From contig NZ_CP014504.1 of NCBI RefSeq assembly GCF_001590605.1, forward strand, positions 2,108,001 through 2,172,000: DNA of 64,000 nt, in the 5' to 3' direction. The notes under the pieces were generated by a model, which was not told the origin of the DNA, did not search any database, and worked only from the letters and a program-made list of their open reading frames with translations. Source of the stretch: Pedobacter cryoconitis. GTDB taxonomy: Bacteria; Bacteroidota; Bacteroidia; Sphingobacteriales; Sphingobacteriaceae. The translations under genes were made by a program, and so were the position numbers. Shown here piece after piece: positions 62,637 to 64,000 of this stretch. Each line of letters opens with the position of its first letter. Within the stretch, counting starts at the first letter, position 1.

Positions 62637-63366
62637 ATGGATACAAAAGGAACAACTTTACAATTATTAGGACACGCCACTTTTAAAATTATAAGGCCTG
62701 ATTATTATTATTGATCCATGGCTAATTAATAATCCATACATCCCTGCTGATTTAGCAAAACAAGACAATATTGAGCTGATTCTAATTACTCATGGCCATG
62801 AAGATCATTTAGATATCCGTTTTAAGGAAATCCTGGATGCTACAAATCCAACCATAATTGCCAACAATATTTGCAGGTGGCATTTAATAGCACAAGGGAT
62901 AGATGAAACCCTATTTGAGCCCATGAATTTAGGTGGGACATTATCACTATTTGATATCGAAGTAACTATGGTCAATGCTTTTCACCATTCCCATATATAC
63001 GTTACTGATAAGACAATTACTTCACCACATGCTGCTAACGGTTTTATTATCAAAATGTCTGATGATACTACAATATATTTTGCTGGTGATACCTGCATTT
63101 TTGGTGATATGAAACTCATTTCTGAGATATATAAACCAAATATTGCGGTACTTCCTATTGGGAACCGTTCTATGATGGGGCCTTTAGAAGCCTCACATGC
63201 TGTAAAATTACTAGATGTCAAACACGTAATTCCTTTTCATTACGGAACATTTGCAGGCTTTACCCAAACACCGGATGAATTTATAGCGCTTACAAAAAAC
63301 TATATCAATACCGAAATCCATATAATGAACGCAGGGAACACTATCATCTGTACAGAACTTGACTAA
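62637..63366 (+). pseudogene. Metallo-beta-lactamase-fold hydrolase (UPF0173-like), frameshifted near its start
   Basis: The ATG at 62637 opens MDTKGTTLQLLGHATFKII, then the frame must change between about 62680 and 62695 to continue GLIIIIDPWLINNPYIPADL. From there the sequence is intact: ITHGHEDHLDI (metal ligands HxHxDH), NAFHHSHIY, IYFAGDTCIFGDMKL and the end KHVIPFHYGTFAGF. All metal-binding residues of the UPF0173-type MBL fold are present. As it stands the first 19 codons are out of frame, so the product would be truncated, unless the shift is a sequencing error or a programmed event. Confidence 0.85.
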
Positions 63367-63372
63367 GGATTA

Positions 63373-63414
63373 AAAACAAATCAACATTTACAGGCGTAAA
63401 TGTTGATTTGTTTT
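63373..63414 (+). terminator. Terminator after the MBL-fold gene
   Basis: AAAACAAATCAACATTTA (63373-63390) pairs perfectly with TAAATGTTGATTTGTTTT (63397-63414), 18 of 18, loop CAGGCG, followed by CTAACC. Confidence 0.8.
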
Positions 63415-63520
63415 CTAACCATAATATGCTCTTAATCATAACATTGCAGGCTTTACCCGCCCTTTACAAATAAAAACTACAAAATCTATAGATTTAATCT
63501 TTTTAAAGAAAAAAGAATCC

Positions 63521-63528
63521 TATATTCG
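63521..63528 (+). promoter_or_regulatory. Promoter-like TATATTCG before the Cys-rich small ORF
   Basis: One mismatch to the Bacteroidota -7 element TAnnTTTG, 24 bp before the small ORF's ATG. The distance would give a transcript start about 15 bases before the ORF, as for leader peptides. The matching -33 element is weak. Confidence 0.4.
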
Positions 63529-63551
63529 TGTAATCAAAATAAATCTTTACA

Positions 63552-63635
63552 ATGAAAACAGATTTACATTTTATAAAAATGAAAAGAAAAACAGTTAAAG
63601 AAGGAATCCTCTTTCTATCAAACTGTTGCTGTTGA
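63552..63635 (+). CDS. Tiny ORF of 27 aa ending Cys-Cys-Cys, candidate leader peptide
   Basis: ATG at 63552, basic product rich in Lys, ending LSNCCC and TGA at 63635, 131 bp before the SusC-like gene and on the same strand. No other signal peptide or family is visible. Leader peptides that end in several identical residues work by ribosome stalling when the matching tRNA is scarce. A short dyad (TCAGT AATC ACTGA, about 63641-63656) follows. It could instead be a random ORF. Confidence 0.45.
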   Translation: MKTDLHFIKMKRKTVKEGILFLSNCCC

Positions 63636-63766
63636 TTCTGTTCAGTAATCACTGATTATAACTAAAACACCTCCAAACATCATATTTTGAAACCTGGCCG
63701 GATGCTAAAAACATCCTCATGGCTTTGCTATGCAATAATCACCCAAAACCATTGAATTTTAACATT
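63636..63766. other. Leader-like region before the SusC-like gene
   Basis: No further ORF. The dyads TCAGT/ACTGA (63641-63656) and GGATG/CATCC (63700-63716) are weak. It is probably the 5' untranslated region of the SusC-like gene. Confidence 0.4.
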
Positions 63767-64000
63767 ATGAAGAAACATTTACTCATCATCCTTTCACTCT
63801 TGCTAACGGCAAATTTTGTCTTTGCCCAAAGTGCGATAACGGGCGTTATAAAAAGTAGTAACGGCGTTCCAGTACCACATGCTACACTATTGATCAGAGG
63901 GACCAAGAATTCTGCAACTGCTGATGCAGATGGCAAGTTCAGTATTGATTCAAAGCAAGAACTTCCATTTTACTTGCGTGTGAGCTCAGTTGGTTACAAA
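63767..64000 (+). CDS. SusC/RagA-type TonB-linked outer-membrane protein (5' end only)
   Basis: The first 78 codons of a receptor that continues past the window end. Signal peptide (HLLIILSLLLTANFVFAQ), then a carboxypeptidase-regulatory-like domain (GVIKSSNGVPVPHATLLIRG to SSVGYK). SusC-type proteins import oligosaccharides or peptides through the outer membrane together with a SusD partner, which would lie to the right. The neighbouring GH92/GH3/esterase genes suggest a glycan substrate, but that is only a guess. Confidence 0.85.
   Translation, partial: MKKHLLIILSLLLTANFVFAQSAITGVIKSSNGVPVPHATLLIRGTKNSATADADGKFSIDSKQELPFYLRVSSVGYK

Follow-up and report, generated by a model that had tools for sequence, protein, structure and literature searches.

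What does a short ORF that ends in three consecutive cysteine codons do just upstream of a TonB-dependent receptor gene? The question arises near the end of the 64,000-nucleotide stretch of Pedobacter cryoconitis DNA analysed here (the window; G000:C1:2108001-2172000 of a 5.95 Mb genome in one contig). A first-pass annotation of the window had described a 27-codon ORF with the ending LSNCCC-stop, 131 bp before the receptor gene, and both the letters and the ORF call confirm it. In classical amino-acid leader attenuators (trp, his, leu), the regulatory codons lie near the end of a short ORF. We consider it likely that the ORF at this locus encodes a cysteine-responsive leader peptide that reads charged cysteinyl-tRNA, and that the receptor belongs to a sulfur-starvation regulon.

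According to the mechanism proposed here, plentiful cysteine would let the ribosome pass the Cys codons and reach the stop, and a downstream RNA fold would keep receptor expression low. When cysteine is scarce, the ribosome would stall on the Cys codons, the fold would change, and the TonB receptor would be made. A promoter motif resembling that of the sulfate operon may provide additional transcriptional control, and it is this resemblance that would place the receptor in the sulfur-starvation regulon. Leader translation, ribosome stalling, the direction of the response, the regulator and the substrate are steps that we infer from sequence. The prediction is made at the level of codons, which makes a cysteine-sensing leader testable by changing three of them.

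The leader ORF and its receptor gene

The features of the locus, in order along the window, are as follows.

63477..63496, + strand: near-palindromic promoter motif CTACAAAATCTATAGATTTA, candidate binding site of a sulfur regulator, upstream of the -7 box
63521..63528, + strand: predicted -7 promoter box of the Bacteroidota type, TATATTCG, read from the letters; similar boxes in orthologues
63552..63635, + strand: leader ORF of 27 codons with an ATG start, MKTDLHFIKMKRKTVKEGILFLSNCCC and stop, from the ORF list and the letters
63624..63632, + strand: Cys-Cys-Cys codons TGT TGC TGT, proposed cysteinyl-tRNA sensor; enriched in orthologue upstream regions
63643..63654, + strand: small predicted hairpin CAGT-AATC-ACTG, just past the leader stop
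63700..63716, + strand: hairpin 1, GGATG-CTAAAAA-CATCC, predicted by folding; consensus pairs in the type-A alignment of 27
63718..63732, + strand: hairpin 2, CATGGC-TTT-GCTATG, recurrent in type A; no T-rich tail here
63767..64000, + strand, continuing to G000:C1:2174346 beyond the window: first part of the TonB-dependent receptor gene (859 aa), from domain profiles

The TGA stop of the leader (63633-63635) directly follows the three Cys codons, and 131 nt separate it from the receptor ATG (63767). A second ATG lies in frame at 63719 and would lengthen the receptor ORF; orthologues favour the start at 63767. We labelled TATATTCG by reference to TAnnTTTG, which we take to be the Bacteroidota -7 consensus, and boxes resembling it (TATATTTG and others) are found near the promoter motif in orthologues. 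The leader ATG lies 23 nt past this predicted box, not the 15 or so bases first estimated, and a short 5′ UTR is therefore expected. The near-palindrome CTACAAAATCTATAGATTTA ends at 63496 and is separated from the box by 24 bases. Farther upstream is a metallo-hydrolase gene (62637-63366) with an apparent frame-shift, its first 25 codons and the rest being in different frames by eye. Between this gene and the leader promoter, a 12-pair hairpin (63380-63407) followed by TTGTTTT is probably the terminator of the upstream gene.

The receptor comprises an N-terminal CarboxypepD-like domain (CarbopepD_reg_2), a Plug domain and a TonB_dep_Rec_b-barrel domain. The initial description of it as SusC-like had to be abandoned. 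Its score against TIGR04056, the SusC/RagA profile, is 78.8 bits where the cut-off is 368.25, and it is absent from the 56 hits of that profile in the genome; no SusD-type lipoprotein gene was found among the adjoining ORFs. A SusC/RagA identity was rejected on the strength of the profile score and the missing SusD neighbour. Downstream of the receptor are a DUF4256 gene and a metE-like ORF (by eye), both on the opposite strand. Orthologues (E <= 1e-100) are present in 80/99 genomes of the genus, this one counted, nearly all at 75 % identity or above, and the receptor is a conserved single gene. Among named relatives, Pedobacter species come closest by receptor, with P. cryoconitis DSM 14825 at 96 %. 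Among proteins of solved structure, it best matches the pesticin receptor, YncD, and receptors for pyrroloquinoline-quinone, siderophores and heme, in nearly every case over the plug region only. Its cargo is probably a sulfur-bearing compound; for an orphan TonB receptor, a Cys leader is a rare hint at the class of substrate.

Conservation of the Cys run

A pattern for the CCC-stop string (TGYTGYTGYTRR) has 118 matches in the genome against 21 for the reversed control, and most of the 30 that were inspected by eye are not leader-like. The string by itself was therefore rejected as evidence, and the case for a leader is made from conservation upstream of orthologues. A DNA pattern for the beginning of the peptide, MKTDLHFI, is far more specific: it matches once in this genome, directly before this receptor, and once per genome in 15/99 genus genomes (this one included), always before this receptor. 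Searches of Rfam with the window end and six related loci, and of NCBIfam with the leader, returned nothing useful.

To assemble comparable regions, we took upstream DNA from 78 of the 80 receptor-bearing genomes (all except G031 and G027) together with 80 named loci. Merging regions with identical last 300 nt left 109 distinct sequences, and one shorter than 330 nt was dropped, leaving 108. A short ORF (ATG start, <= 45 codons) containing CCC is present in 66/108 regions and one containing CC in 81/108, compared with means of 0.17 and 4.2 in 30 dinucleotide shuffles; the regions are related and the counts carry no tree-based correction, so they are not numbers of independent events. The receptor leader thus displays a conserved run of codons for the amino acid that an attenuator would sense. 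As a control, a CC ORF was found upstream of 3/55 SusC-type genes of the same genome, one of the 56 profile hits (partial, 115 bits) having been excluded. The sole CCC ORF among these 55 regions, MMKKRPLARFWRFNLDHLECCCLISIP and further residues (L012:1165-1284; G000:C1:1356602-1356721), lies 144 nt before its SusC gene.

The first-pass annotation had suggested that, ahead of orthologous receptors, the triple-Cys end should be conserved and the remaining leader sequence variable, and had named lack of such conservation as the result that would count against it. The Cys run is in fact retained upstream of most orthologous receptors, in three dissimilar leader designs, and the remainder of the leader is variable. 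What did not hold is a strict triplet. Of the 81 CC-leader regions, 15 lack CCC; in L090, the closest relative, the run reads CSCCY, and elsewhere it is CNCCC or CYCC. No CC ORF is found in 27/108 regions, most of which keep the promoter motif; in some of them the motif is 57-72 nt from the receptor start, leaving no space for a leader, and others have type-B spacing without a Cys pair.

Type A, the design found in the window, runs from MKTDLHFIKMKRKT to CCC and stop, its Cys codons being terminal or close to it (31 distinct sequences). The named strains P. cryoconitis DSM 14825 and P. antarcticus ATCC 51969 (L247 and L250) also have this type of leader. In type B, exemplified by MKTNQKTRSYCCCSHSKTVIAYFRTSH and stop, CC or CCC lies mid-peptide and the stop is 29-38 nt before the gene (32 distinct sequences). 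Type C, exemplified by MKRSLNPMCCCMMKNAFDYLKIPIQQTS and stop (L303), terminates 14-20 nt ahead of the receptor gene (9 distinct sequences). Beyond the Cys run, the three have little peptide sequence in common, and they form a natural series in which the sensor codons appear constant and the switch varies. Within type A the N-terminal part of the peptide is conserved, and over the first 14 codons (17 distinct heads) changes favour synonymous sites, with a pN/pS of 0.42. The Cys codons of type A are TGT in 106 instances and TGC in 14. By this measure of substitution the type-A peptide is under selection at the peptide level. The leader in the window is thus an ORF of a type with peptide-level constraint, and its translation is predicted.

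RNA structure between leader and receptor

The leader RNA (63535-63790) folds better than shuffled sequences, with a z of -2.2, and the part after the stop gives a z of -1.5. The small hairpin just past the stop is recognisable by eye in many type-A relatives. Hairpins 1 and 2 (GGATG...CATCC and CATGGC...GCTATG) are adjacent and recurrent in this type. RNAalifold was applied to 27 of the 31 type-A sequences (L150, L134, L165 and L102 were dropped), and across this alignment hairpin 1 retains most of its pairs; G-U and A-U variants occur, and some pairs are broken. A regular expression for hairpin 2, scanned from 50 nt past the stop onward, matched in 30/31 type-A sequences (all except L165), at 84.5 +/- 5.2 nt from the leader stop and 82.1 +/- 26.4 nt from the receptor ATG. 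This near-fixed spacing to the leader, and not to the receptor start, suggests that in type A hairpin 2 may act with the leader to control transcription elongation; homologous DNA with insertions mainly further downstream would give the same picture.

A T-rich tail follows hairpin 2 in 16/30 type-A sequences, resembling a weak terminator. It is absent in the window, where no intrinsic terminator with a T-run was found between leader and receptor, and for this reason classical transcription attenuation is only a candidate mechanism at this locus. The cysteine-dependent control originally proposed is supported by the conserved leader and Cys run, with the correction that the intrinsic terminator of a classical attenuator was not found between leader and receptor. 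Nor was there support for an antiterminator against hairpin 2 in type A (mean z 0.07). Types A and B gave no sign of surplus base pairing between the Cys codons and the RNA behind them, and RNAalifold on the type-B alignment detected no structure within the leader.

A tentative alternative, which we regard as possible, is that the Cys leader governs translation of the receptor and not transcription elongation, with the waiting ribosome holding a fold at the start site open or ceasing to occlude the start. Such control would suit type C, in which the Cys codons TTGCTGTATG pair with CATACAGCAA beside the start codon of the receptor; in 9 related sequences the mean z is -2.5, and p against shuffles is <= 0.02 in 6 of them. 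This pairing suggests that type C is a candidate translational cysteine switch. It would also suit type B, since a stop 29-38 nt before the start leaves little space for a terminator, and the window, in which no terminator was found. Type A is harder to reconcile with translational control, as the spacing of hairpin 2 is fixed to the leader and not to the start codon and a T-rich tail is present in about half of the sequences (16/30); in addition, neither type A nor type B has the excess of Cys-codon pairing that is seen in type C. For the cysteine-responsive leader that we favour, Cys-tRNA as the predicted signal is better supported by these comparisons than is the mechanism of the switch.

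The type C loci L301, L303, L158 and L309 illustrate this complementarity, with CATACAGCAA lying immediately ahead of the receptor start and matching TTGCTGTATG.

Promoter motif and sulfate-assimilation genes

The near-palindromic motif accompanies the receptor even more regularly than does the Cys run. With a criterion of <=3 mismatches to CTACTA(AA/TT)TCTATAG in the last 480 nt of a region, it was found in 99/108 distinct orthologue upstream regions, compared with 5 in one round of mononucleotide shuffles; this count supersedes a looser one of 61/78, which included a few false places. By regular expression it is absent from all 55 SusC-type upstream regions (400 nt each) of this genome. In type A the motif precedes the -7 box and in type B it immediately follows the box; occurrence on either side makes it resemble a protein-binding site, not a promoter element. 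On that basis the CTACAAAATCTATAGATTTA-type, CTACTAAATCTATAGATTTAGTAG-like motif looks like a putative protein-binding site. The exact string AAATCTATAGATTTA occurs once in the genome, at this locus, and allowing up to 2 mismatches gives 52 matches, of which 30 were inspected and 17 of these fall inside a long ORF (by script). Exact AAATCTATAGATTTA was accordingly rejected as a marker for a regulon across the genome.

The sulfate-assimilation operon of this genome (L213) consists of sulfite reductase followed by cobA-, cysG-, cysH-, cysD- and cysN-type ORFs; CysD was assigned by profile, the sulfite reductase domains by Pfam and the remainder by eye. A related motif, ACTACTAATTCTATCTA, lies just upstream of the likely -7 box of this operon, in the arrangement seen in type A. 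Neither a leader nor a terminator was found upstream of the operon, which makes this genome an exception and counts against the proposed reading. A joint pattern built from the receptor and sulfate-operon motifs has 3 genome matches, the third without a gene start close behind, against 7 for the reversed control; this is no excess, and the pattern, having been written after two of the three were seen, is circular for those two. A second pattern, applied to relatives G040 and G047, has 32 matches (30 inspected) against 129 for the reversed control, most of them without an evident sulfur link. It places the motif at the promoters of a second siroheme-synthase-type (tetrapyrrole) methylase gene, a pyridine-nucleotide oxidoreductase gene and a PhyH gene.

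In many relatives, the sulfate operon itself is preceded by a Cys leader together with an intrinsic terminator. At L242, for instance, sulfite reductase follows the poly-Cys leader MNFNFIPNKLIAKLIMCCCKTQ and stop and then the terminator AATGCTTCTCGGTAACAGGGAAGCATTTTTT. We examined 87 distinct regions, selected by score and for spread over genera from 57/60 and 145/151 genomes with a match. Of these, 49/87 have a terminator no more than 40 nt from the gene and 37/87 have a leader plus terminator before this first gene, compared with 1.9 and 0 in ten shuffles. The combination occurs in 25/56 regions of the genus, 10/12 of g3, 1/2 of g4 and 1/3 of g9, and in 0/6 of g2 and 0/8 across six other genera. 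In 12 regions a terminator occurs without a CC leader, and 7 of these scored with an ORF of at least 2 Cys (CMC, for example). Outside the family, a poly-Cys leader and strong terminator precede sulfite reductase in 2/12 genomes with a match; one leader is MNDITFKAGTIRIAMMCCCCCMMNDSSGSDL and stop, and the other contains CACCCCTC.

In genus g1, near-constant bases immediately after the leader stop (GGAGC, AGAAG, GACTG) match the first arm of the terminator in most cases, and several g3 loci have a GGCTG/CAGCC match by eye. The excess of pairing between the post-stop segment and the terminator arm is modest, with a mean z of -0.78 over the 37 regions and z < -1 in 14 of them. A post-stop segment of this kind could pair as an antiterminator would.

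The cysteine- or sulphur-dependent control put forward at the outset draws backing from two sides, the sulfate-operon-like promoter motif and the poly-Cys leader and terminator units of relatives, both of which are consistent with it. We lean towards a broader reading as well, with some reserve, in which a cysteine-attenuation regulon extends across the Bacteroidota. Poly-Cys leaders (up to five Cys before sulfite reductase) would set sulfate assimilation by transcription termination, and separately evolving Cys leaders would place under the same signal the TonB receptor, which probably imports organosulfur compounds. Through at least two replacements of the leader and RNA switch, the Cys run would have persisted.

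The terminator-linked leaders also bear on whether the signal is cysteine at all. The peptide might itself be functional, Cys-rich and able to bind a metal (copper, zinc) or react to oxidants, so that the signal would be metal or redox state and not cysteine. TonB receptors often import metal complexes, the solved matches of this one include siderophore and heme receptors (through the plug), metal-responsive Cys leader peptides occur in other bacteria, and the type-A peptide is conserved towards its N-terminus. We nonetheless judge a metal or redox peptide improbable, as a similar Cys run with a terminator precedes the sulfate-assimilation operon of relatives, the three receptor designs share little besides the Cys run, and 15/81 CC-leader regions do without CCC. 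It is more improbable still that the ORF is untranslated and the region conserved as promoter or regulatory RNA with incidental Cys codons: the region is conserved as DNA in close relatives, an A-rich UTR easily yields a short ORF and 27/108 regions manage without a CC leader, but against this stand the synonymous bias (pN/pS 0.42), the use of both TGT and TGC, the recurrence of the Cys run in dissimilar leaders and the shuffle expectation of CCC in only 0.17/108 regions.

A cysteine-responsive leader has precedents in other bacteria. In the accessible parts of the papers concerned, Cys leader peptides are predicted before actinobacterial cys/cbs operons, the mycobacterial ones without conserved terminator hairpins (PMC1262725); mycobacterial polycysteine short ORFs are described as cysteine-responsive attenuators (Canestrari et al. 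2020, as cited in PMC9094748); and the uORFC-8-2 motif before cysS has tandem Cys codons followed by an intrinsic terminator, for which ribosome-mediated attenuation is proposed (PMC8632094). As far as those parts go, the leaders described here resemble the mycobacterial and actinobacterial ones in being short uORFs that carry consecutive Cys codons ahead of sulfur genes, with cysteine as the likely signal. They differ from the mycobacterial leaders in phylum; those are leaderless, according to the title, and lack conserved terminator hairpins, whereas strong intrinsic terminators are present at many sulfate operons in the family of the window, where the leader precedes an outer-membrane receptor gene. 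With uORFC-8-2, on the text available, they share the tandem-Cys uORF and intrinsic terminator, and attenuation is proposed for both; cysS encodes a tRNA synthetase, whereas the genes here are those of sulfate assimilation and a TonB receptor. The receptor leader in the window carries its proposed regulatory codons near the end of a short ORF, as the trp, his and leu attenuators do, and is unlike them in having no detected terminator. In many cys operons of genus g1 a post-stop segment may, as in those attenuators, pair with a terminator arm.

The words Bacteroid* and Pedobacter are absent from the main text of PMC8632094. Two transcriptome papers on Bacteroidota, in the parts available, treat leader-peptide attenuation in general terms, and their tables could list leaders of this kind (PMC9723704, PMC7366714). 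The literature searched, beyond which lay most subscription journals and supplementary tables, contains no report of Cys leaders in Bacteroidota and no paper that by its title concerns control of sulfur assimilation in this phylum. Cys leaders are already known in Actinobacteria and before cysS, and those of Bacteroidota sulfate operons and receptors are unreported in the literature searched.

Details were noted for two sets of the loci mentioned above. Upstream of sulfite reductase, L422 (G270) and L424 (G245), both from Bacteroidota outside the family, have poly-Cys leaders (MMCCCCCMM and CAACACCCCTC, respectively) and strong intrinsic terminators; L424 is from outside the class as well. In G040, the gene for a PhyH-family dioxygenase (L332:1500-1660; G040:C1:4002266) has the sulfur motif at its promoter and a CCCC leader of its own, MSNKTNTFYFPSVPNHSPMRMCCCCA, which ends in MRMCCCCA and stop. 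At a guess, this dioxygenase could be a desulfurising enzyme.
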